A stretch of DNA of 64,000 nucleotides from assembly GCF_025666195.1 (NCBI RefSeq), contig NZ_CP102592.1, forward strand, positions 1 through 64,000, in the 5' to 3' direction. Position numbers and translations under genes: made by a program. This document shows positions 8,723 to 64,000 of the stretch, piece by piece. A model generated the notes under the pieces. That model ran no database searches. It was not told the origin of the DNA and was given only the letters and a program-made list of their open reading frames with translations. Numbering within the stretch: position 1 is the first letter of the stretch; every line of letters starts with the position of its first letter. This DNA is from Xanthomonas sp. CFBP 8443. GTDB lineage: Bacteria; Pseudomonadota; Gammaproteobacteria; Xanthomonadales; Xanthomonadaceae.

Positions 8723-9916
8723 ATGAAATTCAGTATTCGCAAGCAAGCGCTGTTGTCCCTGGTGATCACTGCTGCCCTCGGCGGCGCGGTGGTGACCGAC
8801 GCCGTCGCCCAGTCCGATCGTTCCGAGCAGCGCTCCTCGCGCAAGTCCAAGAACGAAAAGGCCGCGGTGATGTTCCCCAACGCCACCCGCCAGGAGCCGA
8901 CCGGCAAGCCGTCGGCCAAGCTCGGCAGCAAGCTGCAGAAGCTGATCGACACCTACAACAAGGGCGAAGACTACGCCGGCGTGCGCACCCAGGCCGACGA
9001 GGTCCTGGCCAATAGCGCAGCCAACGAATACGACAAGTCGATCGCCGCGCAGCTGGCCGCGCAGGCCGCCTACAACCTGGACGACAGCAAGGCCGCCAAG
9101 CAGTACCTGCAGCAGGCGATCCAGTTCAACGGCCTGGACAACAACGGCCACTTCCAGTCGATGCTGATGCTGGCGCAGCTGCAGTTGCAGGACGACGAGA
9201 CCGCCGCAGGCCTGGCTTCGCTGGACAAGTTCCTGGCCGAATCCAAGTCGACCCGTCCGGAAGATCTGATCCTCAAGGGCCAGGCGCTGTACCAGACCGA
9301 GCGTTACCAGGAAGCGATCCCGGTGCTGCAGCAGGCCATTGCCGCCTCGCCGGAGCCCAAGGACAGCTGGAACCAGCTGCTGATGGCCTCCTACGCCGAA
9401 GCCGGCCAGACCGGCGAAGCGGTTAAGGCTGCCGAAGCGCTGGCGGCCAAGACGCCGAACGACAAGAAGGCGCAGCTCAACCTGGCCAACATGTACATGC
9501 AGGCCGACCAGATGGACAAGGCCGCCGCGGTGATGGACAAGCTGCGCGCCGCCGGCCAGTTGACCGACGAGAAGGAGTACAAGCAGCTGTACTCGATCTA
9601 CGCCAACACCGACAAGAAGGAAAAGGACGTCATCGCGGTCATCAACGAAGGCATGCAGAAGGGCATCCTCAAGCCCGACTACCAGACCTATCTGGCGCTG
9701 GCGCAGTCCTACTACTACAGCGATCAGGTGCCACAGGCGATCGAGAACTGGCAGAAGGCCGCGCCGCTGTCCAAGGACGGCGAGACCTATCTGAACCTGG
9801 CCAAGGTGCTGCACCAGGAAGGCCGCGTTCCGGAAGCCAAGCAGGCCGCGCAACAGGCGTTGGCCAAGGGCGTCAAGAAGCCGGAAGACGCCAAGAAGAT
9901 CATCAACCTGAAGTAA
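8723..9916 (+). CDS. Secreted tetratricopeptide-repeat protein
   Basis: A 397-residue protein with a Sec signal peptide (about 1-29, ending DAVAQ) followed by a charged stretch and helical repeats of the TPR/Sel1-like kind through the rest of the chain. The Ala-rich, Gln/Lys-rich helices and recurring A-x-x-Y-x-x-G patterns support a TPR superhelix. It lies immediately upstream of the tonB operon on the same strand, a position suggesting a periplasmic role linked to TonB energisation, but this is inference. No enzymatic motif is seen. Confidence 0.85.
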   Translation: MKFSIRKQALLSLVITAALGGAVVTDAVAQSDRSEQRSSRKSKNEKAAVMFPNATRQEPTGKPSAKLGSKLQKLIDTYNKGEDYAGVRTQADEVLANSAANEYDKSIAAQLAAQAAYNLDDSKAAKQYLQQAIQFNGLDNNGHFQSMLMLAQLQLQDDETAAGLASLDKFLAESKSTRPEDLILKGQALYQTERYQEAIPVLQQAIAASPEPKDSWNQLLMASYAEAGQTGEAVKAAEALAAKTPNDKKAQLNLANMYMQADQMDKAAAVMDKLRAAGQLTDEKEYKQLYSIYANTDKKEKDVIAVINEGMQKGILKPDYQTYLALAQSYYYSDQVPQAIENWQKAAPLSKDGETYLNLAKVLHQEGRVPEAKQAAQQALAKGVKKPEDAKKIINLK

Positions 9917-9993
9917 AACGCAAAAAAAGCCCCCGAAAGCCAGTGCTTAAAGTAGTGCAGGTCACAGGGATTGGTATAAGCTTGGAGGTTCCT

Positions 9994-10040
9994 GCGGTGT
10001 GACACCGCGTGAACTGGGATTCAGATTCTTCGCGAATCCC
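9994..10040 (+). promoter_or_regulatory. Two adjacent palindromes in the tonB leader
   Basis: Seen: GCGGTGT-G-ACACCGC at 9994-10008 (7-base arms) and GGGATTC...GAATCCC at 10016-10040 (7-base arms, 11-base loop). Both lie in the 150-base gap before tonB. The first could be an operator; the second could be an mRNA hairpin or terminator of the upstream gene. No protein can be assigned. Confidence 0.4.
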
Positions 10041-10066
10041 GGCCCCCCTAAACGAGTCATTGGCGC

Positions 10067-10741
10067 ATGACGGAACAATTGGTCATCAATCGGCATTACG
10101 ACAGAGATGAAGCTTCCGGCCTCAGCTGGCCGCGCATCATCGGTATTGCCTTCGTAATCGCGCTGCATCTGGCAGCGCTGATGTTGCTGCTGATTCCAGC
10201 CGTTGCGCCGAAGGCGGCAGCGGAGAAGGAACGCAACATCGTCGTCACCCTGGTCGACGCACCGCCGCCGCCGCCACCCCCGCCGCCGCCGCCGCCGAAG
10301 CCGCCGGAGACGCCGCCGCCGCCGGTCAAGAACCTGGCGCCGCCGAAGCCGACCCCGCTGCCGCCGCCGCCGGAAGCCCCGGTGATCGACGTGCCGGAGC
10401 CGCGCCCGAGCGACATCGCCACGCCGCCGTCGCCGCCGTCGCCGCCGGCTGCAGCCACCGACATCGGCGCCAGCGTCGATATCTCGTCGAAGAACATGAA
10501 CCCGCCGAAGTACCCGCCGTCCGCATTCCGGTCGGGCGCAGAAGGCGAGGTGATCCTGATCATCGACGTCGACGCAAACGGTAACGTCACCAACGTGGCC
10601 GTCGAAAAATCCAGCCGCAACCGCGACCTGGACCGCGCCGCCATGGAAGCAGCGCGCAAGTGGCGGTTCAATGCCGCTACCGCCAATGGACAGAAGACCG
10701 CCGGCCGCGTCCGCGTACCGGTCAACTTCGCGCTGAACTGA
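10067..10741 (+). CDS. tonB: Energy transducer TonB
   Basis: TonB spans the periplasm and passes proton-motive energy from ExbB/ExbD to outer-membrane receptors such as the two encoded in this window. The 224-residue protein has a cytoplasmic N-tail, one membrane anchor (about 20-48), a proline-rich spacer (a run of about 12 prolines and PPP-K repeats, about 65-130), and a C-terminal TonB domain (about 138-224) ending VRVPVNFALN. It heads the operon tonB-exbB-exbD-exbD2. Confidence 0.97.
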   Translation: MTEQLVINRHYDRDEASGLSWPRIIGIAFVIALHLAALMLLLIPAVAPKAAAEKERNIVVTLVDAPPPPPPPPPPPPKPPETPPPPVKNLAPPKPTPLPPPPEAPVIDVPEPRPSDIATPPSPPSPPAAATDIGASVDISSKNMNPPKYPPSAFRSGAEGEVILIIDVDANGNVTNVAVEKSSRNRDLDRAAMEAARKWRFNAATANGQKTAGRVRVPVNFALN

Positions 10742-10834
10742 TACAAAGGCAGCAGCCCGGCGCACCCGCCGGTCTGCAGGCCCTGTCTACTCTTTGCACC
10801 ACCCTCATCACCACACACAACAAAGGTAAGCGTC

Positions 10835-11599
10835 ATGCTGCAGGAAATTTTCATCGCCGCTGCTGCGGGGGGCAACAACGCATCGAACGCCCTGTCGCAG
10901 ATGGGCTTCGAGCACCTGATCACCGAGATGACCTCCAAGCCGGGTGACTTCGCCGTCTCCTGGGTGGTGCTCATCACCCTTATCATCATGTCGGCGGCTT
11001 CGTGGTACTGGACCGTCATCAACATCTTCCGCGCCACCCGCCTGAAGAGCCAGGCCGACCGCGTCACCAGCCTGTTCTGGGACACGCCGAACGCGCAGGA
11101 CGCCATCCGTGCGATGGAAGAGCAGCCGTCCAGCGAGCCCTTCTCGAAGATCGCGCTCGACGCCGCACAGGCCGCTGCGCACCACCAGCGTGCCGAAGCC
11201 GGCACCGGCACCGGCCTGGGCGAGACCCTGAGCCGTTCGGAGTTTGTCGACCGCGCCCTGCGTCAGGCCGTGACCCGTGAAAGCACCAAGCTGCAGTCGG
11301 GCATGACCCTGCTGGCCACCGTCGGTGCGACCGCGCCGTTCGTCGGTCTGCTCGGTACGGTGTGGGGCATCTACGGCGCGCTGATCAAGATCGGTGCCAC
11401 CGGCTCCGCCTCGATCGACGCCGTTGCCGGCCCGGTGGGTGAAGCGCTGATCATGACCGCGATCGGTCTGTTCGTCGCGATCCCGGCCGTGTTCGCGTTC
11501 AACTTCTTCAGCAAGGTCAACAGCTCGACGATCGCCAAGTTCGATACGTTCGCCCACGACCTGCATGACTTCTTCGCCACTGGTTCGCGCGTTCGCTGA
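10835..11599 (+). CDS. exbB: Proton channel subunit ExbB
   Basis: ExbB (MotA/TolQ/ExbB family) forms the pentameric proton channel with ExbD that drives TonB. The 254-residue product has three membrane segments (about 35-60, 155-180 and 198-222) with the large cytoplasmic loop between the first two, as usual. The conserved stretch LLATVGATAPFVGLLGTVWG is present. It lies between tonB and exbD. Confidence 0.97.
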   Translation: MLQEIFIAAAAGGNNASNALSQMGFEHLITEMTSKPGDFAVSWVVLITLIIMSAASWYWTVINIFRATRLKSQADRVTSLFWDTPNAQDAIRAMEEQPSSEPFSKIALDAAQAAAHHQRAEAGTGTGLGETLSRSEFVDRALRQAVTRESTKLQSGMTLLATVGATAPFVGLLGTVWGIYGALIKIGATGSASIDAVAGPVGEALIMTAIGLFVAIPAVFAFNFFSKVNSSTIAKFDTFAHDLHDFFATGSRVR

Positions 11600-51719: not shown

Positions 51720-54700
51720 ATGAAAGAGGCAATCCGCCGCAGCGCCACCCGCGCTGCCGCCAGCGCCGTCGGCGCCATGACCCCCTTGTGGGAGCGACTT
51801 CAGTCGCGACGTGCCTTACCGACAAGGCTCATCTCCCCCTGTAGGAGCGGCTTCAGCCGCGACAGGCACCCACCATTCCGCGACATCGCCCCGCACGCGC
51901 GCTGCTCCGCACGGACAGGTCAAACATCCCCCACCACAGGCAATCGCATCCTGGCCCATTGCCTGGCCATGCTGTCCTGCCTGGCACTCCCGGCCTACGC
52001 CGCCCCCGCACCCACCACCACCGCCCCCGACCTCCTGTTCCGCGTCTCCGCCGACCGCGGCTTCGACGCCGACATCGCCCAAGGCGACGCCAAACCCAAC
52101 TTCCGCGACAAGGTCGCCCTGGTCCCCACCGGCGTGAAGGGCAACGCCATCGAATGGGCCGACGACGGCGTCCTCGCCTGGAACGCCCCCGGCAACCTCT
52201 ACACCCAGCGCGGCACGCTCTCCTTCTTTTGGCGCTCGCGCTATCCGGTCGGCGAAGCACCGTTCGTGATCTTCCGCGTCGGCTACGCCGACCACAGCAG
52301 CTGGGACATGGCCTGGCTGCGCATCGACTGGAACGGCCACGGCTTCGACGCCTTCGTCACCGACGCCAACCTGGCGCGCACCCGCGCGTCGTTCACCCTC
52401 GACAAGAACCCATCCGCCAGCGCCTGGACCCACCTCGCCTTCGCCTGGGACGAAACCCGCGGCGTACGCCTGTACGTGGACGGCAAGGAAGCCGCGCGCG
52501 CCGAGTGCGCGCAGGCCTGCGCCGACGGCGGCTCGCTCGATTTCGATGCCGCGCTCGACCAGCTTGGCCTGGCCGGGCGGGTGATGGCGCCGCACCAGGT
52601 GCAGAGCCGCTACAACTTCCTGCGCGGCAGCGACTTCGACGAGATCCGCATCTACGACCGCATGCTCGATACCGCCGGCGCCGCCGCCCTGGCGCGCCAG
52701 CAGGAACCGCGCAGCGCCGAACCGCTGCGCGGCGACGCAGCACGCAACGCCTGGCTGCACCGCTACGGCTGGGACCACGGCCACGCACCGCCTGCGCTGG
52801 ACGCACCGTCCACCCGCATCCGCAAGGTCGAGTTCGCCGACGCCAAGGATCTCAAGCAGTGGATGTGGAAGGCCACCGACGGCATCGCCGAGACCACCTG
52901 GCCCGGCGTCTACAACCGCTCGCGCCTGCCCGGCCGCGACGACTATTTCCAGTTGCCTGACTGGAACACCTACGTCGAAGGCGGCAAGGCGCTGGACCTC
53001 ACGCTGCCCGACGAACCGTTCAACCGCATCGAGCTGCGTGGCGCCGCCTACGGCCAGGCCAGCTACGCCGCCGCCGGCGCCACGTCCGCGCCGCTGTTCC
53101 AGCGCAGCCAAGGCACCGTGCGCAGCGTGGAACAGTTCGAACGTCGCCGCGGCGGCCACCTGCGCTTCACCAACACCGCGCAGGAAACCCCGATCCAGGA
53201 AATCTGGGCCTACGACGTCGGCGCCGGCGCACCGCCGTCAGATCCCAGCGCCACGCTCAGCTACACCGTGCGCAGCGACATCGCGCCGGACTACGCCAAC
53301 CTCGCCGCATTGCGCGCCACCATCACCGGCCGCTACCCGCCGGCCGAACGCAGCACCGTGGTCGCGTTGCCGAGCAAGGCGCCGGCGCGCAAACGCGGCG
53401 CCGAAAAACCCGCCACGCCGTCGCTGCCGATCGTGCACGTGCTGATCCCCTCCAGCCTCGGCGACGCCCCGCCGGATCAGCCGCTGATGCGCAGCTGGTC
53501 CTACGGCTGGGAGAACATGCACGACGGCCTGGACGGCATCGCCATCGACCTGCCGGCGCTGGACCTGCCGGCCACCCATGACGGCCTGATCCCGCTCAAC
53601 ATTCGCATCAAGGACCCGATCTGGCCGGCGCGCGACATGCTCGACGTCTCGGTGTCGGTCAAGCCCGGCCAGGCGCGCACGCTGTGGCTGGACCTGCGCG
53701 ACCGCATCCTCGGCAACGACAGCCTGATGCTCAGCATCGCCTCCGCCGCGCCCGGTTTCGACGCGCGCGCGCTGGACGGCGCGCAACTGCGCCTGCTGTT
53801 CAAGCCGCGCGACCAGGCCAAGGCCGAACACATCGCCGACCGCTTCAACCAAGTCAAGGACAACTGGGGCTTCTTGGTCGAGGAACACACCACCTCCAAG
53901 CGCCAGCTGCTGTACGCGCGCCTGGATGCCGACATCGGCGACCTGCTGCGCGTGGACCCGGACAACGCGCTCGGCCGCGAATACTGGAACGACATCAGCT
54001 ACGGCAACCAGGGCGCGCTGCCGGTCGACCTGCCCACCCCGCCCAAGGGCGTGCCGGCCTGGGCGTTCTGGCAACTGGAAGACCTCAAGGCCACGCGCCG
54101 CTACATCCGCTGGTGGATCGACGAGCGGCAAGTGGCCTACGGCGATTTCGGCGGTGGCATCTCCGACGATTCCGACCTCACCCAGCAATGGCCGGGCGTC
54201 GCCCTGATGGGCGTGGACCCGGACAAGCTCAATGCCTCGCTGACCGCGCTGTCCGACGCCAACTACCGCAACGGCATGTTCACCGACGGCCTGTCCACCA
54301 TCGAGACCGACGAACTGCATGCCTACGAGGAAGGCATCAACCTCAACAGCGCCATGCTCTACCTCAACTGGGGCGACCCGCTCACCGTCGAGCGCCTGAT
54401 GCGCACGCTGAAGGCCTTCGACACCATCATCCAGGTCAACCCGCAAGGCCACCTGCTGTTCGCCAGCAACTGGTTCGGCGGGCGCAAGGTCTACCGCGAG
54501 CCGAACTGGCAGTGGCAGAAACCCTACTCGTTCCCGGTGCTGCACCCGGCCATGCTGCTGGGCGGCTACAACGCCGACCCCAACAGCCGCCGCATCGTCA
54601 CCGGCCTGGCCGACGGCTACCTGGCCCACGCCTACACCAACGCCAAGGGCCAATGGGCGCTGCCCAACGAGATCAACTGGAAAACCGGCAAAACCCGCGG

Positions 54701-55781
54701 CGGCGAACTGTTCGAAGGCAGCGGCGGCGCCGACACCCTGCACACCTTCTGGGCCGCCTACCGCTGGACCGGCGAGGCGCGCTACCTCAAGCCCATCGAC
54801 TACCGCGTCGCCAACGCCGGCCCGGCCGGCCTGTCGCTGCTCAACGAGAATTTCCTCGACCTGCTCGGCAAGCGCGACAGCTGGGGCACCGACCTGGCCA
54901 AGGCCGCCGCCAAACCCGATGCCGTCCCCGACTTCGCCCACCACGCCGCCTGGGAGGCCAGCGGCGACACCGCCTGGCTGGAAGCCCTGTACCGCGCCGA
55001 GACCCGCGACAAACTGCAGACCTTCTACATGAACACCGAAGGCCACTGGTGGAGCGACCGCGTCGAATCGCCCACCGTGAACCTGCAGCGCGCCCGCCTG
55101 GGCGGCGTGGCCCTCAAGCGCAACCAGACCTACCCCGGCCACACCGTCAGTTGGCGCTTCGCCGATCCCGAAGGCGCCGTGCAGGTCGCGCTGCTGCTGT
55201 CCAAACCGCGTCAGGATCGCTTTACCGTTATCGGCCACAACCTCGGTGGCAAGGGGCAGCGGGCGCAGATGACCGGCTGGAACATCACCGCCGGGCAATG
55301 GCGCATGCGCTCGGGCCTCGATCGCGATGGCGATGGGCGCATCGATGGCAAGCCCGCCACGCGCGAGTTCGCGTTCGAGAAGAGCGGGGCGGTGGACGTG
55401 GAATTTCCCGCCGGCAAGACGGTGGTGATGGAGTTCGAACTCATCGCGCCTGCCGCGGTGCCGGTGGAGCAGCGGCCGGATCTGGGGATCGGGCGTGGCG
55501 ATGTGTGGGTGAGCGCGGATGGTATCGAAGTTACCGTGCACAGCCTTGGCCATGCGGACGCACCGGCGGGGTTCGTGGTGCTGGAAGATGCGCGTGGCCG
55601 GGAAGTGGCGCGGGCGGCGTTTGCTGCGTTGGAGGCGCCGCGGGATTTGGAGCCGAGGATCGCGAACGTGCGGTTGGCTTTGCCGGATGGTAGTGGCGGC
55701 AAGGGCGCACGCTTGCGGATCGTTACCGATGGCGAGGTGGACGAGATAACGAAGCGCAATAACGCGATGGATTTGCACTAA
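51720..55781 (+). CDS. Very large predicted secreted protein with LamG-like domain
   Basis: A protein of up to 1353 residues. The ATG at 51720 follows a strong site (AAGGAG), but two REP palindromes (51788 and 51841) lie inside the following codons. A short hydrophobic signal (LAHCLAMLSCLALPAYA) begins only near residue 79. A start at 51969 would give 1270 residues. Beyond the signal: a LamG/concanavalin-like domain (about 100-300; RGTLSFFWRSRYP, WTHLAFAWDE, VRLYVDGKEA), a long beta-rich region, then a helical, probably (alpha/alpha)6-like domain (about 780-1150; GGGISDDSDLTQQWPG, ELFEGSGGADTLHTFWAAYRWTG), then a beta C-terminal domain. The context (receptor plus KDG kinase) points to a polysaccharide lyase or glycosidase. 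I do not recognise the catalytic family. Confidence 0.8.
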   Translation: MKEAIRRSATRAAASAVGAMTPLWERLQSRRALPTRLISPCRSGFSRDRHPPFRDIAPHARCSARTGQTSPTTGNRILAHCLAMLSCLALPAYAAPAPTTTAPDLLFRVSADRGFDADIAQGDAKPNFRDKVALVPTGVKGNAIEWADDGVLAWNAPGNLYTQRGTLSFFWRSRYPVGEAPFVIFRVGYADHSSWDMAWLRIDWNGHGFDAFVTDANLARTRASFTLDKNPSASAWTHLAFAWDETRGVRLYVDGKEAARAECAQACADGGSLDFDAALDQLGLAGRVMAPHQVQSRYNFLRGSDFDEIRIYDRMLDTAGAAALARQQEPRSAEPLRGDAARNAWLHRYGWDHGHAPPALDAPSTRIRKVEFADAKDLKQWMWKATDGIAETTWPGVYNRSRLPGRDDYFQLPDWNTYVEGGKALDLTLPDEPFNRIELRGAAYGQASYAAAGATSAPLFQRSQGTVRSVEQFERRRGGHLRFTNTAQETPIQEIWAYDVGAGAPPSDPSATLSYTVRSDIAPDYANLAALRATITGRYPPAERSTVVALPSKAPARKRGAEKPATPSLPIVHVLIPSSLGDAPPDQPLMRSWSYGWENMHDGLDGIAIDLPALDLPATHDGLIPLNIRIKDPIWPARDMLDVSVSVKPGQARTLWLDLRDRILGNDSLMLSIASAAPGFDARALDGAQLRLLFKPRDQAKAEHIADRFNQVKDNWGFLVEEHTTSKRQLLYARLDADIGDLLRVDPDNALGREYWNDISYGNQGALPVDLPTPPKGVPAWAFWQLEDLKATRRYIRWWIDERQVAYGDFGGGISDDSDLTQQWPGVALMGVDPDKLNASLTALSDANYRNGMFTDGLSTIETDELHAYEEGINLNSAMLYLNWGDPLTVERLMRTLKAFDTIIQVNPQGHLLFASNWFGGRKVYREPNWQWQKPYSFPVLHPAMLLGGYNADPNSRRIVTGLADGYLAHAYTNAKGQWALPNEINWKTGKTRGGELFEGSGGADTLHTFWAAYRWTGEARYLKPIDYRVANAGPAGLSLLNENFLDLLGKRDSWGTDLAKAAAKPDAVPDFAHHAAWEASGDTAWLEALYRAETRDKLQTFYMNTEGHWWSDRVESPTVNLQRARLGGVALKRNQTYPGHTVSWRFADPEGAVQVALLLSKPRQDRFTVIGHNLGGKGQRAQMTGWNITAGQWRMRSGLDRDGDGRIDGKPATREFAFEKSGAVDVEFPAGKTVVMEFELIAPAAVPVEQRPDLGIGRGDVWVSADGIEVTVHSLGHADAPAGFVVLEDARGREVARAAFAALEAPRDLEPRIANVRLALPDGSGGKGARLRIVTDGEVDEITKRNNAMDLH
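51788..51863 (+). repeat. REP pair (GTGG + GTAG) inside the large secreted gene
   Basis: GTGG-type copy at 51788-51810 and GTAG-type copy at 51841-51863, both on the plus strand, unlike the opposed pairs elsewhere. They keep the frame open and encode LWERLQSRR and CRSGFSRDR. Confidence 0.85.
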
Positions 55782-55930: not shown

Positions 55931-57031
55931 ATGGACTTTGTTGACCAGCTGCGCCTGCTTGCGGCGCGCATCGTTAGTACGCGCGCGATGATTCAAACCG
56001 AAGAGGCCACCAAGAATGCGATGGTGATGCCTCTGATCCAGATCCTTGGATACAACGTCTTCGATCCGCTCGAAGTCACGCCAGAGATCGTTGCCGATAT
56101 CGGCACCAAGAAAGGCGAGAAGGTCGATTACGCCATCTTGCGCGACGGCAAGCCAATCATCCTGTTCGAGTGCAAGAAGGCAGGCGGCGACCTAAGCATC
56201 AACCATGCGGCGCAACTCTTTCGCTACTTCCATGTGACCGAAGCGCGCTTTGGCGTGCTCACCAATGGATTGCTCTATCGGTTCTTCACCGACCTGGAGC
56301 AGCCCAACAAGATGGACGAGAAGCCATTCTTCGAGTTCAACATCCTCGACTTCAAGGAGCGAGATGTTGAAGAACTCAAGAAGTTCGCGAAGACCGCGTT
56401 CGATCTGGACGCGATACTCAACACGGCAAACGAGTTGAAGTACACGCGTGCCATTCAAGCGCGACTTGCCGAATGGATGGCACAGCCATCCGAAGAGTTC
56501 GTCCGGCTCGTGTCGTCCGATCTCATTGGTACACGCAGGTTCACCCCGGCGGTGCGGGACCAGTTTACGTTAATTGCCCGCCGTGCCTTCGACCAACTTG
56601 TGGGCGAGAAGATCAATGAGCGACTGAAAGGCGCGATGTCTCCAGAATCCTTATCGGTTCCCGATCCGGTCCAAGCGTCGATACCGACTGCCGTAGAGCC
56701 GCCGACGCAGCCATCCACGCCAGAACCACAGTCGATAACGACTCAGGAAGAAGTCGAAGGCTTCCATATTGTGCGCGCAATTGTGCGGGAGCTGGTTAGT
56801 ACCAAGCGTGTAGTCATGAGAGATGCGATGAGCTATTGCGCGATTCTTCTCGATGATAACAACAGAAAGCCAATTTGCAGGTTGCGCTTCAATAATTTGG
56901 AAAAGCTAAGGTTAGGTTTGTTCAATCAGAACAAAGAAGAAGAGATTTTTAATATTGAATCGCCAGATGATATCTACAGCCATGCCGAGCATATTAGGGC
57001 AATGGTCTCATCATACTTGCCGCGGGAGTAG
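55931..57031 (+). CDS. Stand-alone type I restriction R-subunit N-terminal-like nuclease
   Basis: A 366-residue protein with the HSDR_N (type I restriction endonuclease R subunit) nuclease fold at the N-terminus: D66 in EKVDYAIL and E80/K82 in ILFECKKAG form a PD-(D/E)XK site. The helicase/translocase part of HsdR is missing. A C-terminal domain (about 275-366) binds the family together. No methylase or specificity gene is adjacent, so it is not a classical type I system. GC content is far lower than in the preceding genes; this gene opens the low-GC region. Confidence 0.85.
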   Translation: MDFVDQLRLLAARIVSTRAMIQTEEATKNAMVMPLIQILGYNVFDPLEVTPEIVADIGTKKGEKVDYAILRDGKPIILFECKKAGGDLSINHAAQLFRYFHVTEARFGVLTNGLLYRFFTDLEQPNKMDEKPFFEFNILDFKERDVEELKKFAKTAFDLDAILNTANELKYTRAIQARLAEWMAQPSEEFVRLVSSDLIGTRRFTPAVRDQFTLIARRAFDQLVGEKINERLKGAMSPESLSVPDPVQASIPTAVEPPTQPSTPEPQSITTQEEVEGFHIVRAIVRELVSTKRVVMRDAMSYCAILLDDNNRKPICRLRFNNLEKLRLGLFNQNKEEEIFNIESPDDIYSHAEHIRAMVSSYLPRE

Positions 57032-57097
57032 GCTAATATTCGTAGCAAAAATATTAATGCTGATGCCGCTTCGTGGTGGCTAAGTCACCTGCTAGCT
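57031..57097 (+). other. Decayed attC-like site
   Basis: Starts GGCTAATATTCGT (compare GCCTAACAATTCGT), has a central GCCGC-TTCG hairpin, and ends TAAGTCACCTGCTAGCT (compare TAACTCAGGCGTTAGGC, about 11 of 17 matches). The next gene starts 17 bases later, as usual for cassettes. It is degenerate and may not recombine. Confidence 0.45.
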
Positions 57098-57113
57098 CGC
57101 CAGGAACCCGAAA

Positions 57114-57692
57114 ATGGATCGTGAAATAAAAGAAGCTTTTTCACGCCTCCAAGCAGAGCTGAGGAAGGACTTACCATTCTTTGGCTTTTGTGGGTTAATT
57201 GTCGGTTTGTTCCTTGTCTGGCAAGGAAAAGCGACGGAGCGAGGCTGGTCAAAGGCACATTGGGCGTCAGATCTCTTAGCTGACTTCATGTCACTTAATG
57301 CATTTGGCCTAGTATTCTTCGCCTATTTAGCGATTGGTTGCACAATCACAGTGCTCACCAGGTTTAACTTTACTCATCGCTACTTAACATCTAGCCTTGA
57401 TCACATAGAGGAGCGGTTAACACAATTCGCAAGTTCGCTTTTGGCCTTCATGACTGGTTTACTTGCGTTTGTCGCGCTGGCATCTATTTTAAATTTGGAC
57501 AGTGGTGGCCTGAAAGTATTGCTTCTTTCATTAATATTTTCTTTATTGGTCGGATTTACATACGTTGCCGGTGTGTTGGTAGCGCGTCGCGCAGAGCCAT
57601 TTGATATATGGTGGGTTGCGCTAATCATGTTGAGCGTATGTTTTGGTGTTCTAGGGTGGCTGATATTCCTTGCAAGCGGGAAAACGGGCTAA
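57114..57692 (+). CDS. Polytopic membrane protein of unknown function
   Basis: A 192-residue protein with five membrane segments (about 22-40, 63-85, 105-128, 134-155, 165-188) and a basic N-terminus. No family recognised. Its position after a decayed attC site suggests it was acquired as a cassette. AT-rich codon use. Confidence 0.75.
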   Translation: MDREIKEAFSRLQAELRKDLPFFGFCGLIVGLFLVWQGKATERGWSKAHWASDLLADFMSLNAFGLVFFAYLAIGCTITVLTRFNFTHRYLTSSLDHIEERLTQFASSLLAFMTGLLAFVALASILNLDSGGLKVLLLSLIFSLLVGFTYVAGVLVARRAEPFDIWWVALIMLSVCFGVLGWLIFLASGKTG

Positions 57693-57938
57693 AGAGAACT
57701 GGGGTCAGAGCATTAGGGAGAGGACAGGGTCAGGGCTACTTTAGAAGTCAACCTGAGTCCTTTTCCGCCGAAGGTTCTGTTTGACAAGCCATGCCACGCC
57801 TACCATGCCTCCCTTTTTCCGAGCTTTCCACCAAAGTGCTGAAGAAAAGGCTTCTTCTAACCTTACTTCAGGCGGGTGAGGGGGAAGAGAGAAAAGAGAG
57901 ATCCATTTAAAAGGACATCACAGGGGAACATTACGGCG

Positions 57939-59399
57939 ATGAAAGTTTATTTCTCTGACTATTTTTCAGTTTCGCCGAAAGCGCTTAAGGAATATGGGGC
58001 TTTCAACGTTTCGCTCATTAACGACCTTCCATTGTTTATCGACCCCTTTTTACTATTTAACAGCGAAAAGAAGGAGTATCGTGATTTACATGACGCGATC
58101 ATAAAATACATTCGGTTTCTAAGGGGGTTGTCAGGGGATGGGAAAATTAGCGAAGGCCATATCAAACATCTCTTCACCTTCAAGGAAGTGAAGCAAAATT
58201 GGCTTGGCTATAGCATGGTTGGTAACAGTGGCTCAGGTTTGGGGGCGAAGTTTGCCATTGCCATGAATGAGAACCTGTCCACCATTTTTAGCAATTTTGG
58301 CGATGAAAAGATTACGAAAGGAAGCCACCTGGAGAAGCTATGCCTCATTAAAGATGGTGTTGGCAAAGATGCCATCAGCGACTTCACCACAAATCTCATC
58401 AAAAGTTATCTTTGCGAATACACCCAAACTTTTGCAGAAAAGCATCTAGCGAGTAATCGCATCAAAGCCGTCGATGTGTCTCATGCAAAGTTTAACTACG
58501 ATCTACGACGCTGGATGCCAAAGCGATACAAGCTTCCATACATTGATGGCGACTATGTACTTCTCACCCCCAAGGACATCCTCACCAAAGACGAAGCATG
58601 GATAAACCGCCATGACATTGTGTCTGACTTTGAAGATGTGCTCAACGCCGTACCAAATGACGTGCTTCGCGCACAAATTAACGACTACTTTCTTCGCCAA
58701 ATCCCCGATAATGCCAAGAAAAAGGACATGAATGAAGCTGCCATTAGGGCCGTCCGTGCATTTCCTCAAATCATCGACTATTACATCCGGTACAAGGAGG
58801 ACAACGGAGACAAGGCCGTTGCTGTCAGCGAAGAGAAACTCAAAGAAACCGAGTCACAGTTCATCAGCCAGGTCTCGAATCTCATCGAAAAGCTTGTCGA
58901 GGACGACAACTTTTACAAGACTCCGACCGACACATTCGAAGAAACGAGTCGGCGCGTCCAGTTCCTCAAGCAAGTCATCGAGAAGAACGACGGCTACAAA
59001 ATTTTCTATATCAAGGGAAAACCCGTACAGCGTGAGGTTGACCTTCAGTTGATGTTTCGACTGACGTGGTTTGCCTCTAGCGATGACGTAAACGCTGAGG
59101 TGAACAATGGTCGAGGCCCTGTAGATTACAAAATATCGCGCGGCTCAAAGGACGCCACTCTCGTAGAGTTCAAGCTTGCAAGCAACTCAAAATTAAAACA
59201 AAACCTTGCCAAGCAGGTTGAGGTCTACAAGGACGCCAACCAAACCAAGAAGTCCATCAAGGTTGTCCTTCACTTCACGGATGAAGAATACTCAAAGATC
59301 AAAAAGATGATGAAAGAACTCAAGATCAAGGAGGGGAATGACTTCGTCCTCATCGACGCGAGCCGCACCAACAAGCCGTCAGGCTCAAATGCAAAATAA
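57939..59399 (+). CDS. PD-(D/E)XK nuclease-like protein, first gene of a two-gene unit
   Basis: A 486-residue soluble protein. The N-terminal part (MKVYFSDYFSVSPKALKEYG, PLFIDPFLLFNS) is not a family I can name. Near the C-terminus a PD-(D/E)XK core is visible: D396 in GPVDYKIS and E410/K412 in LVEFKLASN, followed by a helix and strand (KQVEVYKDAN, KVVLHF) as in restriction-like nucleases. The stop is 35 bases before the HEPN-like gene, so they are likely co-transcribed. The ATG at 57939 follows AGGGGAAC. Low GC. Confidence 0.75.
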   Translation: MKVYFSDYFSVSPKALKEYGAFNVSLINDLPLFIDPFLLFNSEKKEYRDLHDAIIKYIRFLRGLSGDGKISEGHIKHLFTFKEVKQNWLGYSMVGNSGSGLGAKFAIAMNENLSTIFSNFGDEKITKGSHLEKLCLIKDGVGKDAISDFTTNLIKSYLCEYTQTFAEKHLASNRIKAVDVSHAKFNYDLRRWMPKRYKLPYIDGDYVLLTPKDILTKDEAWINRHDIVSDFEDVLNAVPNDVLRAQINDYFLRQIPDNAKKKDMNEAAIRAVRAFPQIIDYYIRYKEDNGDKAVAVSEEKLKETESQFISQVSNLIEKLVEDDNFYKTPTDTFEETSRRVQFLKQVIEKNDGYKIFYIKGKPVQREVDLQLMFRLTWFASSDDVNAEVNNGRGPVDYKISRGSKDATLVEFKLASNSKLKQNLAKQVEVYKDANQTKKSIKVVLHFTDEEYSKIKKMMKELKIKEGNDFVLIDASRTNKPSGSNAK

Positions 59400-59434
59400 A
59401 AAGTGGAGAACGGCCTCGTGGAAAAGGAATCCTG

Positions 59435-60016
59435 ATGGGCATCAACCAAATCGAAGTCGATACGCACTGGAATTATTTCCTCGCAATCGAAGAGGACTTC
59501 CTGCGCATATCTAGGTATGTACATTTCAACACAGCCAACAACAAAGCTTACTCCATCGAATTTGCAAGAATCATTCTCGCCGCAGGCTCGGAAGTTGATG
59601 TCGTCGCCAAGGCCTTGACCAATCAGATAACAGGCAAAGACACCGAGAACATCGCAGAACACAGGAAGGCGATACTTCCTGCCTATCCTGAGATTCCAGA
59701 GCACACGGTGTCCATGGACCGGTCCGGCATGACCGTGACACCGTGGGAGAATTGGGGCGCGGGCAAATCACCGGATTGGTGGTCCAGCTACAACACTGTC
59801 AAACACAATCGTGGACGGCATTTTCAAGAGGCGAATCTTGAGAATACATTCCGTTCTGTAGCAGGACTTTTCATCCTTCTGATTTACCACTTACGACAAA
59901 TGGAAGCTAAAGAAGTCCATCCACCTCCGCGCATTCTCTCAACGGAAGAAACGTTCACCTCCTTTGCAACCGACCCAAGAAGGAGAATATTTCTTCTCTA
60001 TCCGCTGAATTCTTAG
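59435..60016 (+). CDS. HEPN-like protein, second gene of the unit
   Basis: A 193-residue helical protein with WWSSYNTVKHNRG near 129, a YN-x3-H pattern like the catalytic motif of HEPN ribonucleases; the usual Arg before it is replaced. It is clearly paralogous to the gene at 61453 (shared HWNYFLA-E, YSIEFA, DVVAK and the VKH block). Paired with the upstream nuclease-like gene, it looks like a toxin/defence module, but no such system is recognised. Confidence 0.75.
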   Translation: MGINQIEVDTHWNYFLAIEEDFLRISRYVHFNTANNKAYSIEFARIILAAGSEVDVVAKALTNQITGKDTENIAEHRKAILPAYPEIPEHTVSMDRSGMTVTPWENWGAGKSPDWWSSYNTVKHNRGRHFQEANLENTFRSVAGLFILLIYHLRQMEAKEVHPPPRILSTEETFTSFATDPRRRIFLLYPLNS

Positions 60017-60085: not shown

Positions 60086-60143
60086 CCGGGTCAGAGTGCA
60101 CTTTATCCGTACTCAACACTTAGAAAGTGTACTCTGACCCCGG
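60086..60143. repeat. Inverted repeat with GGGTCAGAGTGCAC arms
   Basis: Arms CCGGGTCAGAGTGCACTTT and AAAGTGTACTCTGACCCCGG (60124-60143) around a 19-base loop. Related copies at 61128 and 63321, all in cassettes; a single half-arm occurs at 57709. Such elements are often mobilised by REP-associated transposases. Confidence 0.8.
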
Positions 60144-60332
60144 GTTCGGTTTGGTCCGGAGTCTTGGATTACGCCATTCAAGAAACAGCTTTACGAGTTC
60201 AAAGCGAGCGAAACACCGGCGCCCTTCGACTTCGATGACGAAGACATAACCGTTTTAGCCAGCTGCCCAACAATTCGTCCAAGCCGACGCCGCTTCGCGG
60301 CGTGGCCTCACTCAGGCGTTAGGCATCTCTAG
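60144..60332 (+). pseudogene. 3' remnant of a cassette gene
   Basis: An open frame without a start codon encodes ESWITPFKKQLYEFKA, then an acidic segment, and runs through the attC site, giving the usual attC-encoded tail (IRPSRRRFAAW). It begins right at the inverted repeat, which probably replaced the 5' end. Confidence 0.45.
60265..60324 (+). other. attC recombination site 1
   Basis: 60 bases from GCCCAAC to GTTAGGC with the central imperfect hairpin GCCGACGCCGC-TTCG-CGGCGTGGC. It ends the cassette before the gene at 60347. Confidence 0.9.
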
Positions 60333-60346
60333 GAGATTAGCTAACG

Positions 60347-61087
60347 ATGTTGAACTCCAACAACTTTAAAATAGTGTGGTGGGCAATCCTAGTCATTGCT
60401 TTAGGTGCTTATCTCTATTTGAGACAAGATCAACTTGTTGGCGGGAATCCAACGTATTTCGACGTAGTTGTGTTCTTGGTGTGGATGGCAGTTTGTCTTG
60501 CTCCCATATTCAAGGACGTGAAGCTGTTCGGTCTCGAACTGAAGCAAGACATTGAACAGCTCAAGAAGGACATCTCGCATCAATTGGCGCTTATGAAGGT
60601 TGAGCTTCAATCATCGATTGACGTTTCTTCATCCAATACGAGTCATGTTCACATCAACAGCGGAGTACCGATCCCTGCTAACGATGCGGAAATACCAGAC
60701 ATAAGGCAGAAAATAGCAGAAACCCTGAGGGAGTTTGGTATTGGTGCCGGAAAAGCAGGCCTGCCCGAGTTAAATTTTGCACATGACATTCAGAAAGAGT
60801 CCGTTGATCTATTCAAGGTCCGTCTCTCGTTTGAATTGCTTATAAATGAATATTCTCGTTTAAATGGCATTGACCCACGTCGTTACCCAATGCACAGGGT
60901 TCTGCGTGAGCTCCAGAAAAATGAAAGGATTTCCCCTAACGTCATTAATGGGGTTCTGGAAATTATAGCCATTTGCAACTATGCCGTTCACGGAGAAAGA
61001 GTTTCAGAGAACCAAATTGCTTTTGTTTTAGATTCGGCACCTGGCCTGTACAAAGCGCTAAAATCGGAGCTCCAATCAAATGCATAA
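60347..61087 (+). CDS. Membrane-anchored DUF4145/HEPN-like protein (cassette gene)
   Basis: A 246-residue protein with two N-terminal membrane helices (about 8-25 and 38-56), a coiled coil (about 62-85), and a C-terminal helical domain with IAICNYAVHGERVS near 213, which resembles the R-N-x3-H core of DUF4145/HEPN proteins but with Cys in place of Arg. It starts 22 bases after attC site 1. Possibly an effector or regulator in a defence cassette; function not known. Confidence 0.75.
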   Translation: MLNSNNFKIVWWAILVIALGAYLYLRQDQLVGGNPTYFDVVVFLVWMAVCLAPIFKDVKLFGLELKQDIEQLKKDISHQLALMKVELQSSIDVSSSNTSHVHINSGVPIPANDAEIPDIRQKIAETLREFGIGAGKAGLPELNFAHDIQKESVDLFKVRLSFELLINEYSRLNGIDPRRYPMHRVLRELQKNERISPNVINGVLEIIAICNYAVHGERVSENQIAFVLDSAPGLYKALKSELQSNA

Positions 61088-61127
61088 ATGTTGCTAAACC
61101 TCGCTCCCTTTGGTCGCTGTAGTAAAT

Positions 61128-61185
61128 GGGGTCGGAGTAGACTTTCCCTGTGCGCGGCACTCTAGAAAGTACACCCTAACCCCGG
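61128..61185. repeat. Inverted repeat, degenerate copy
   Basis: Arms GGGGTCGGAGTAGACTTT and AAAGTACACCCTAACCCCGG (61166-61185). Lies between the gene and the attC site of its cassette. The rest of the 365-base gap (61088-61452) holds attC site 2 and an unsupported short frame. Confidence 0.75.
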
Positions 61186-61382
61186 TACTGGTTAGTGACA
61201 ATTCATGTGCGGCACAACCAATGCGATAGTGGACGTGAAACACGTTTGCCTTGGCTGCATGATGAGCGTGACCCGACCCTCATCCAGCCTGCTGACATGC
61301 GTGTCGGGTGGCTTGCCTATCGAGAGCCACTGGAACAGCCATGGTCAAGAGAGGGTATGCAGACAGTGATGAGACGGATGAG

Positions 61383-61444
61383 ATCTAATAATTCATTCAA
61401 GCCGAGGCCGCTTCGCCGGCGCGGGTTAAACTAAGGCGTTAGGT
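61383..61444 (+). other. attC recombination site 2
   Basis: 62 bases from ATCTAAT to GTTAGGT with the central hairpin GCCGAGGCCGC-TTCG-CCGGCGCGGG. Left end degenerate. Confidence 0.8.
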
Positions 61445-61452
61445 GGCTGAAC

Positions 61453-62040
61453 ATGGGAATCGAATCCGTCGCTAATAAGGTCCACTGGAACTACTTCCTC
61501 GCCCTCGAGCGCGATCTCGAGACGACTGCGCGCTACGTAGAGTTCGCGGAGGCGAATATGACCACTTACTCCATTGAGTTCGCGCACCTGCTATTCGCTG
61601 CCGCGTCGGAAGCGGATGTGGTCGCGAAGCTGCTTTGCAAGTGTGTCGCAGTTGACCTGCCTCGTGGAAATATTGACCAATACCGCGCTGCGCTCAAGCA
61701 GAACTTGCCGGAAATAGCCTCTACACAAGTGCTAGTGCCACGCTATGGGCTAACCCTTAGCCCTTGGTCGAACTGGGCCAATGACAAGAACCCAGCTTGG
61801 TGGCGGAGTTACAACAATGTTAAGCACGAACGCGACAGCCACTATGCGGAAGCGACTCTCAAGAATGCGCTGAACTCGCTAGCCGGCCTTATGGTTCTCG
61901 TTCTCCATCAATACAGCAGCACGCCACTAGCACCCGGCGTGCAATTAGATCGACGCGAGACGACCCGATACTTGTTGCCGGAATCCACCCTGCTCCGCTT
62001 CCCCGAGAGTTACTACTACGATGTCCTCATTAGTGGCTAA
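61453..62040 (+). CDS. HEPN-like protein (cassette gene, paralogue of 59435 gene)
   Basis: A 195-residue helical protein sharing HWNYFLALE, YSIEFAHLLFAAASEADVVAK and WWRSYNNVKHERDSH with the gene at 59435. Here Arg precedes the motif (R-x6-H), fitting the HEPN ribonuclease pattern better than its paralogue. It starts 8 bases after attC site 2 and is a complete single-gene cassette. Function inferred only. Confidence 0.8.
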   Translation: MGIESVANKVHWNYFLALERDLETTARYVEFAEANMTTYSIEFAHLLFAAASEADVVAKLLCKCVAVDLPRGNIDQYRAALKQNLPEIASTQVLVPRYGLTLSPWSNWANDKNPAWWRSYNNVKHERDSHYAEATLKNALNSLAGLMVLVLHQYSSTPLAPGVQLDRRETTRYLLPESTLLRFPESYYYDVLISG

Positions 62041-62048
62041 GCAGTAGC

Positions 62049-62107
62049 TTCTAACGATCGTCCAAGAAGACGCCGCTTCGCGTTACGACTTAACTCAGGT
62101 GTTAGGC
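62049..62107 (+). other. attC recombination site 3
   Basis: 59 bases from TTCTAAC to GTTAGGC with central hairpin AAGAAGACGCCGC-TTCG-CGTTACGACTT. Confidence 0.85.
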
Positions 62108-62134
62108 CGCTTTTTCAAAATCACTGGAGTCTTT

Positions 62135-62368
62135 ATGGATTTGAATGCACAAGTTATTGCGGCAGTTGCTCAGCGGAAAGAACGACCCAAAGGTATCCGC
62201 TTCAGCGTCGCAGCCTTCCGAGAACTAGAGAGCGCGGGACACATCACTAGGGCAGATGGGGGGCCGCTTGGCCTAGGCTGGTTCCCAAACGTGCCGTGGT
62301 TCGACAAGAACATATATGCATGGTGCGATCCGTCGTTTGGGGGAACCTTCGAGCTGCCCGCGGCCTAA
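62135..62368 (+). CDS. Small hypothetical protein (cassette gene)
   Basis: A 77-residue soluble protein (MDLNAQVIAAVAQRKERPKG start; end PSFGGTFELPAA) with a GGAG ribosome-binding site 9 bases before the ATG. Its stop overlaps the next attC site. No family recognised. Confidence 0.7.
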   Translation: MDLNAQVIAAVAQRKERPKGIRFSVAAFRELESAGHITRADGGPLGLGWFPNVPWFDKNIYAWCDPSFGGTFELPAA

Positions 62369-62422
62369 CAATTCGTCCAAGCCGACGCCGTTTCGCGGCG
62401 CGGCTTAATTCAGGCATTAGGG
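62363..62422 (+). other. attC recombination site 4
   Basis: 60 bases from GCCTAAC to ATTAGGG with central hairpin GCCGACGCCG-TTTC-GCGGCGCGGC; over most of its length nearly identical to site 1. Confidence 0.85.
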
Positions 62423-62431
62423 CATCTGCAC

Positions 62432-63259
62432 ATGGCACAGAACTTCTTCGATCGACTTCGCAGCTACTACCTAAAAGTAGCCGAGGTGCTTCGCGGTGAA
62501 GCCGATGCGGCATCAGTATTCGCGAATACAACAGATATTGGAATGTCCCGCGAGTTGGCCTATGCAGAGTTTCTGAAACAGCACGCGCCATCGAAATGCA
62601 ACGTATTATTGGGTGGTTTCCTATTCGATGATGATGGCGCCGAATCCAAGCAACTCGACATCATCATTACTACCGACACCGCCCCCCGTTTTAATTTCCA
62701 CAACAAGGATGGCTCCGGAAAATCCTTTTCGCCGGTTGAAGGTACGCTCGGCGTTGTGTCAGTCAAGTCAACGCTAAACCGCGCCGAACTTTTTGATGCG
62801 CTTGGCGGCATCGCTTCCATCCCACCGACGAGAGCGTTGGATGGACGAGTAAATGTTCTTCTAAAAATCAAGAACTATGACGATTGGCCGGTGAAAATCG
62901 TGTACGCCTCAAAGGGTATTGCGCCGGAGACTTTACTCGCGCACATAAACGAATACTACGGCACGCATCCTGAGATTCCACTGAGCAGGCGCCCGAACTT
63001 CGTTCACGTCGCAGGTTCCTGTCTCATCGTCCGTGCACAGGAAGGCATGACTCTGCATGATCGCAGAACCGGTGCAGCCGAGCCTATCGCTCTTGGCACA
63101 TACCATCTTTTGACGACTGACTCAGATCTACAAGCAATTGTTTGGACGCTCAATCAACTTCAACAGAACGCAAGCGCGTCTACGCACATACTCCTTTCGT
63201 ATGATTCTCTCATCAACAAAGTTAGCGGACTGCACTCGGTGACGCCGATAGCCGACTAA
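62432..63259 (+). CDS. DUF6602 nuclease-fold protein (cassette gene)
   Basis: A 275-residue protein of the DUF6602 type, which has a restriction-endonuclease-like fold. Seen: D76 in KQLDIIIT, E103 in SPVEGTLGVV and K112 in VSVKSTL. In the family the last block is usually IEVKSTL; here Ser110 replaces the Glu of the ExK pair, so catalysis may be lost. Starts 9 bases after attC site 4. Confidence 0.8.
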   Translation: MAQNFFDRLRSYYLKVAEVLRGEADAASVFANTTDIGMSRELAYAEFLKQHAPSKCNVLLGGFLFDDDGAESKQLDIIITTDTAPRFNFHNKDGSGKSFSPVEGTLGVVSVKSTLNRAELFDALGGIASIPPTRALDGRVNVLLKIKNYDDWPVKIVYASKGIAPETLLAHINEYYGTHPEIPLSRRPNFVHVAGSCLIVRAQEGMTLHDRRTGAAEPIALGTYHLLTTDSDLQAIVWTLNQLQQNASASTHILLSYDSLINKVSGLHSVTPIAD

Positions 63260-63320: not shown

Positions 63321-63380
63321 TAGGGATCGGAGTGCACTTCCCCGCGGCCCGCACTCTAAAAAATTCACTCTGACCTCAGT
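63321..63380. repeat. Inverted repeat, degenerate copy in a gene-poor cassette
   Basis: Arms AGGGATCGGAGTGCACTT and AAATTCACTCTGACCTCAG (63361-63379). The 289-base cassette it occupies (63314-63602) has no supported gene; the only frame is a 15-codon remnant ending at the next attC. Confidence 0.65.
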
Positions 63381-63497
63381 TCTCCCTTTTGGGAGTACCC
63401 CGTAGGTTTCGAGGGTCACAGCAATACCCATTTTCCCAGTGAAGTCACTTTAGTCATGGACATTATCTATGGCTTGGTGCACGATCCTGACTTACGG

Positions 63498-63602
63498 GTC
63501 TAACAATTCGTTTACGCCGAGACAGCTTCGCTGCCTCGGGGGCGTCTTAGACTGTGCCATCACCGCGGCCACAAATCGGTCCGGCTTAACCATGCGTTAT
63601 GC
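63498..63602 (+). other. attC recombination site 6 (long form)
   Basis: About 105 bases from GTCTAAC to GTTATGC, starting with the same TAACAATTCGTTTACGCCGA motif seen in sites 1 and 4 and with an inner GAGACAGC-TTC-GCTGCCTC hairpin. Longer than sites 1-5. Confidence 0.75.
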
Positions 63603-63618
63603 ATCACAGGGGGGCATC

Positions 63619-64000
63619 ATGGATCGTCGAGCTCTAAAAATTCCTTTCACGACTGAGAATACGCCCGATTGGTCGTGTCCGCGTTGCGATAAGGGTCTAC
63701 TCCGATTCGTGGAAGGAAAGTTCCACGCCGAGGAACGCAAAGGCTCAAAAGAAGCGAGGAGCCACGAGGCGTGGGACCCGGACTGGATCGAGTACGTGTA
63801 CTCCGGCATTCTGCAATGCGGCAATGGCAACTGTGGCGAGTTCGTTGCTAACTCTGGCACCGGTGGTGTTGATATCGATGTAGAGATTGACGAGTCCGGT
63901 GAGCCGGAACAAACCTGGGCAGACTTTTTCCGTCCGAAGTATTTTGAGCCGCCATTGCGTCTTATAGATATTCCCAAAGAATGCCCTGATTCCGTCTCTT
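63619..64000 (+). CDS. DUF4145 domain protein (partial, runs off the window)
   Basis: The first 127 codons of a gene start at an ATG preceded by AGGGGGGC. The N-terminus has two Cys pairs (CPRC near 20 and CGNGNC near 67) typical of the zinc-ribbon of DUF4145 proteins, a family often tied to defence and HEPN proteins. The 3' end is outside the window. Confidence 0.75.
   Translation, partial: MDRRALKIPFTTENTPDWSCPRCDKGLLRFVEGKFHAEERKGSKEARSHEAWDPDWIEYVYSGILQCGNGNCGEFVANSGTGGVDIDVEIDESGEPEQTWADFFRPKYFEPPLRLIDIPKECPDSVS

Follow-up and report, generated by a model that had tools for sequence, protein, structure and literature searches.

Two adjacent genes of Xanthomonas sp. CFBP 8443, here called A and B, raise the question of whether a nuclease-like and a HEPN-like protein encoded side by side form a dedicated system or have come to lie together by accident. 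Both are located in a window of 64,000 nucleotides (contig NZ_CP102592.1, positions 1 to 64,000, taken as a whole), where a first-pass annotation based on the sequence alone had proposed a nuclease/RNase or sensor/effector pair. The two open reading frames are indeed present on one strand and only 35 bases apart (59400-59434). The longest frame of A starts at GTG 57876, while aligned relatives start at about ATG 57939. Following the results below, A and B are likely to be cargo genes of the defence type that are independent of each other and have become neighbours in a sedentary integron cassette array with no integrase close by (CALIN).

A dedicated two-gene system is rejected as the leading explanation because the pair is so seldom met in the genomes covered. 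When a B profile was compared with gene-like open reading frames, a B-family gene was found beside A at one of 67 A loci, i.e. locus L002 of Xanthomonas sp. NCPPB 1128 (L and G numbers denote loci and genomes), and this was again the sole match when the B sequence was compared with all open reading frames of the 55 A loci from genomes. The 67 comprise these 55, six of seven viral and six of 17 plasmid loci; in four the sequence stops within 300 bases of the A gene, and for two the gene set contains no such gene. Of the 398 genomes covered for the order, 14 match A (several matches being distant and partial) and seven match B, and the two occur together only in the genome studied here, compared to 0.25 genomes expected from the product. 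At genus level (20 genomes), A is found in two, B in three and the pair in two. No A was met at the eight viral B loci and no B at the seven viral A loci, and no plasmid record has both, A being found in 17 and B in seven. The first-pass annotation would have given up its proposal if homologues never occurred together; their co-occurrence across genomes is almost absent and comes close to that, and a dedicated system is not supported. The genes around A are mixed, and include, among the matches listed, type I specificity and restriction genes, AbiLi, AriA, AbiV, ZorD, DpdE, GNAT, integrases and ordinary genes. Of 164 neighbouring proteins picked, 117 were scanned for families, and among the first 25 families listed per scan (out of 335 and 338 in two of the scans) none matched more than four members in any one scan. 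A is thus found in part in defence islands, without a fixed partner, and the expected defence-type setting is borne out.

The setting of A and B themselves, which had been overlooked, is a CALIN. Four attC sites lie within 60262-62425, and the repeats match attC anatomy, going by the attC consensus. A covariance model (R1) was made from these four sites and one site of L002, and a second model (R2) from 26 sequences. Outside its training set, R1 finds one more site at 64379-64443 (E 2.3e-6), as well as sites at 4791353 (E 4e-7) and 4792167 (E 5e-5; 1.4e-5 and 0.0018, respectively, in a search of the whole genome). The latter two directly adjoin an IlvD/Edd-family gene and the integron integrase at 4789347-4790270 (TIGR02249, 394.9 bits at a cut-off of 265, the only match above cut-off in the genome), a location that speaks for R1 as a model of attC sites. 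The integron with its open integrase frame beside the IlvD/Edd-family gene spans G000:C1 4787414-4793217, and further attC clusters lie at 131125-133453 (minus strand) and 3703045-3709032 (plus strand) of the same contig. B2, a paralogue of B, exactly fills the interval between the attC sites 61380-61447 and 62046-62110. Neither the stretch preceding A nor the gap between the two genes yielded an attC site, the next one lying about 250 bases after B; the A-B block ends without a directly adjacent attC site and is not, as it stands, bounded as an integron cassette. The array contains several nuclease-type genes (55931-57031, A and 62432-63259) and two B-type genes, so that a nuclease gene beside a HEPN-like gene is unsurprising.

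The final 1 kb of the laminin-G gene that marks the chromosomal site finds a match in 17 of the 20 genomes of the genus, and leaving out the own genome, G404, G399 and G400 gives 13 regions, of which 12 contain R2 attC matches (E up to 0.01; none in L144). A is found in none of the 13 and B in one (L145). In L145, from a third Xanthomonas genome (G298), the site holds a further B relative, which is encoded on the strand opposite to that of the flanking gene. In 2-kb steps, the G+C content of the window is 0.61-0.74 until 56 kb and 0.47-0.52 thereafter.

Structure prediction of both proteins, as had been proposed, gives a PD-(D/E)XK core for A and a HEPN helical bundle for B. The reported D396...E410-x-K412 core of A is confirmed by conservation, D396 and E410 being invariant and K412 at least 90% conserved among 44 aligned sequences (A included), with N replacing K in L031. 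In the model, the core is an alpha-beta-beta-beta-alpha-beta arrangement (helix 366-375, strands 383-386, 397-400 and 406-413, helix 419-433, strand 439-445), with a mean pLDDT of 82 and ten-residue means of 53-91 in the core part (388-392 below 50), by which the core is assigned to the PD-(D/E)XK nuclease superfamily. Relatives of A are encoded at 55 loci in genome contigs. The A family is already present in PADLOC as the phage-defence candidate PDC-M36A, of which PDLC04597 is matched by 44 of 44 aligned sequences and PDLC04598 by 19 of 44. The A protein of the window matches at E 2.2e-22 with residues 6-231, covering approximately the first half of the profile only. No further PDC-M36 model is matched by B or the other seven window genes scanned, and no Pfam match was found for A. 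Among viral models, A has no structural match with E below 0.001, and neither family has a credible sequence link to a solved structure (best E 0.18 and 0.038, both unrelated). At L042 of Streptomyces sp. STR69, a distant A relative (9553-11253, minus strand; E 3e-17, profile residues 22-229) faces A.

For B, the reported YN-x3-H (VKH) block is read as Y119-N120-T-V-K123-H124-N-R126, in which K123, H124 and R126 are invariant (14 aligned sequences, B included); in the family it is mostly Y-N-x2-K-H-x-R. The canonical Rx4-6H motif is absent from B, which has S, S and Y at the seventh, sixth and fifth residue before H124. In fact, none of 21 distinct B-family sequences has Arg five or six residues before the His, while at the seventh residue Arg is found in four (B2, L061, L066 and L081; this would fit Rx6H) and Lys in five. 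Relatives of B are present in other genomes, plasmids and viral contigs.

Elsewhere, over part of their distribution, both families seem to be carried as single cassettes. R1, which was not trained on B loci, finds attC sites (E below 0.001) at seven of 19 B loci (L061-L066 and L082), and R2 finds the same seven. The site lies at the B gene in L061, L062, L063, L064 and L066, 400 bases away and on the other strand in L065, and approximately 5 kb away in L082; L069 and L072 have attC-like ends by eye. For A, R1 gives three weak matches at 61 loci without L002 (best E 0.005) and R2 gives matches up to E 0.5 at six of the 61 (L004, L005, L012, L013, L014 and L016), among them an Aquabacterium metagenome-assembled genome in which A is an exact one-gene cassette between two of six attC matches (L012, 7880-9602). 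Exactly matching seven-base ends flank A at five of 59 loci (L003, L005, L006, L009 and L012), compared to 0.19 by mononucleotide shuffling and 23 of 3422 with mismatched partners, and flank B at three of 21 (L061, L062 and L072), compared to 0.065 and five of 420. The 59 are the 67 A loci plus the window, without nine: L030 and L056 (A gene absent from the gene set) and L015, L038, L046, L047, L049, L055 and L092 (A shorter than 1300 bases, broken or cut). Gene starts were set by hand for A in 27 loci and for B in L064, L066, L084 and L085, and L063 (B) has no sequence on one flank. A strict scan for whole attC patterns at the ends of A gives a weak signal (two upstream and one downstream versus 0.7 and 0.25 expected in the 59 loci), and the cassette claim for A is therefore based on the R2 matches and the seven-base ends. 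A phage origin was considered and rejected: no A match in 50,697 phage records, no viral contig matching either single sequence (seven A and eight B loci with profiles), and for B2 no viral contig and one phage record.

Observations in favour of a young but genuine two-gene defence operon in Xanthomonas, kept as a unit in which A would cut foreign DNA and B cut or bind RNA, or one would control the other, come from the block shared with NCPPB 1128. This block covers A, B and the gap separating them, together with some 120 bases upstream, and the match ends at both edges, where the adjoining sequence and neighbours differ, while the flanking laminin-G gene is also common to both. Compared to the L002 copies (one genome pair, two methods), A has a dN/dS of 0.06-0.12 and B one of 0.17-0.25, so that both are under purifying selection; together with their relatives elsewhere, this marks both as real genes. 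No terminator-like site was found on the plus strand of the 35-base gap. However, the pair occurs in only two of 20 genus genomes and, among the other A loci, at one of 67. In addition, B relatives are in some cases single cassettes elsewhere, and selection on each gene is no proof of joint action, so that an operon of this kind, with a joint function in the two Xanthomonas genomes, is considered unlikely. Depending on the method, dS is 0.50 or 0.29 (A), 0.32 or 0.24 (B) and 0.35 or 1.09 (flanking gene), too wide a spread to date the block against the species. Less probable still is a variant in which the two cargo genes have become a fused operon acting as a dual-nuclease defence unit, i.e. 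a DNA cutter and an RNA cutter with a rewired HEPN site, where the catalytic Arg, instead of preceding the His, would now lie two residues beyond it (Y-x4-H-x-R). The HepT motif is R-x4-H-x-Y, which would correspond to Y-x4-H-x-R in B. Such a relocation is suggested by the conservation pattern only, and its odds are lowered because in some relatives Arg is still present at the seventh position ahead of the His.

HEPN toxins are often found in two-gene modules, and the structural matches listed for B in a second comparison include HEPN toxins of HEPN-MNT pairs, as would suit a toxin-antitoxin pair with B as toxin and A as antidote (or the reverse). But A has no Pfam match, hence no nucleotidyltransferase, and possesses a complete nuclease core instead; moreover, A has no constant partner and B occurs without A. 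A toxin-antitoxin pair is therefore very improbable, and was rejected for want of a fitting partner. A role for A as an accessory nuclease in restriction-modification is just as doubtful: some A genes do closely follow restriction genes (e.g. in L034, where a type I restriction gene overlaps A, or in L076, with the order methyltransferase, helicase, GIY-YIG, A), but the neighbours of A are mixed, as described above, and there is no methyltransferase among the window genes scanned.

If A and B are independent cargo, each would have arrived as an integron cassette, and the attC site between them would have been lost. A would then act alone, its N-terminal part probably sensing or controlling and its C-terminal PD-(D/E)XK domain probably cutting DNA. 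B, with a HEPN fold and from a family that is partly cassette-borne, would probably bind or cut RNA, with the K-H-x-R core replacing the usual R-x4-6-H. Both probably act against phages or other foreign DNA, and in this genome, with 35 bases and no attC site found between them, they are probably co-transcribed.

Table 1. Features of the locus in window coordinates, with the basis of each assignment.
Feature	Position	Strand	Description
A	57939..59399	+	486 aa; PDC-M36A-like, C-terminal PD-(D/E)XK nuclease core (D396, E410, K412) plus N-terminal part
B	59435..60016	+	193 aa; HEPN fold; Y-N-x2-K-H-x-R block, lacking the Arg of Rx4-6H
A-B block common to Xanthomonas sp. NCPPB 1128	57816..60015	+	blastn, 89.2% over 2206 columns
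Laminin_G_3-domain protein gene	51720..55781	+	conserved flank marking the chromosomal site; PF13385, E 4e-9
HsdR_N-type (PD-(D/E)XK-like) protein	55931..57031	+	cargo; PF04313, E 3e-16; phrog_4225 endonuclease, E 2.5e-117
Unclassified protein	57114..57692	+	cargo; hydrophobic by eye; open reading frame, no family match in scans
Palindromic repeat	60088..60140	.	GGGTCAGAGTGCACTTT...AAAGTGTACTCTGACCC, 3' of B
attC site	60262..60327	+	82.4 bits; training site of R1
Cassette gene, unclassified	60347..61087	+	open reading frame, attC sites on either side
attC site	61380..61447	+	66.2 bits; training site of R1
B2	61453..62040	+	paralogue of B, exact one-gene cassette, attC on both sides; 46% identity to B (residues 1-152)
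attC site	62046..62110	+	71.6 bits; training site of R1
attC site	62360..62425	+	83.5 bits; training site of R1
DUF6602 protein	62432..63259	+	cargo; PF20247, E 5e-17; PADLOC PD_DExK / NucC-like PDLC01495, E 3e-17
Weak attC-like match	63495..63605	+	E 0.0047 with R1, 3.4e-5 with R2

Several smaller features accompany the array. The stretch 60141-60261 (between the repeat 3' of B and the attC site) resembles, by eye, the end of another, truncated gene, and 57040-57104, after the HsdR_N-type gene, is a decayed attC-like stretch matched by neither R1 nor R2. A gene spanning window positions 63469-64000 and L057 1-380 ends at the attC site at 64379; judging by eye, its tail resembles DUF4145. The palindromic repeat with GGGTCAGAGTGCACTTT arms follows cassette genes at 60088-60140, 61129-61182 and 63324-63376, at L057 1786-1839 and within L002 10109-12984; allowing up to one mismatch, there are five arms in the whole genome, four of them inside the array. 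The L002 copy at 10426-10473 lies, by eye, at the point where the gene at 10206 diverges from its longer relative at L057 6039-6551.

Two 2025 studies, going by their titles, reportedly treat integron arrays as stores of phage-defence genes. The present locus adds two uncharacterised families (PD-(D/E)XK, and HEPN-like without the standard catalytic Arg), each of which is a single cassette in some unrelated bacteria, and illustrates how chance neighbours in a cassette array can pass for a two-gene system.

With respect to known systems, A shares its family with PDC-M36A; no paper naming PDC-M36 was found in a search of open PMC papers. Shedu and other single-protein PD-(D/E)XK defence nucleases are not singled out, since many other nucleases score equally high or higher against A. 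From HepT/MntA (HEPN-MNT) the pair differs in lacking an MNT-type partner, A having a nuclease core in its place. The integron cassette HEPN family of PDB 3jrt is likewise a HEPN-type domain in integron cassettes, and is proposed, in Anantharaman et al. 2013 (PMC3710099), to comprise RNases that induce dormancy; it is listed there with a conserved Rx4-6H, whereas B is without the Arg, and it is not among the profile-search or structural matches listed for B. The same source describes the Parep1/8 HEPN family, in which, as in B, the His is kept and the Arg of Rx4-6H is not conserved, while other basic residues are. As for the site, PMC12444791 (2025) describes, for five Xanthomonas species, CALINs that adjoin lamG and/or secF. 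In that study intI is mostly located downstream of ilvD, and phage defence is assigned to 20 of the cassette gene families (1.8%). Its lamG presumably corresponds to the laminin-G gene of the window, and no essential difference to that study is seen: there is the same attC cluster without integrase beside a laminin-G gene, and the same intI beside ilvD, and this kind of site is therefore already known.
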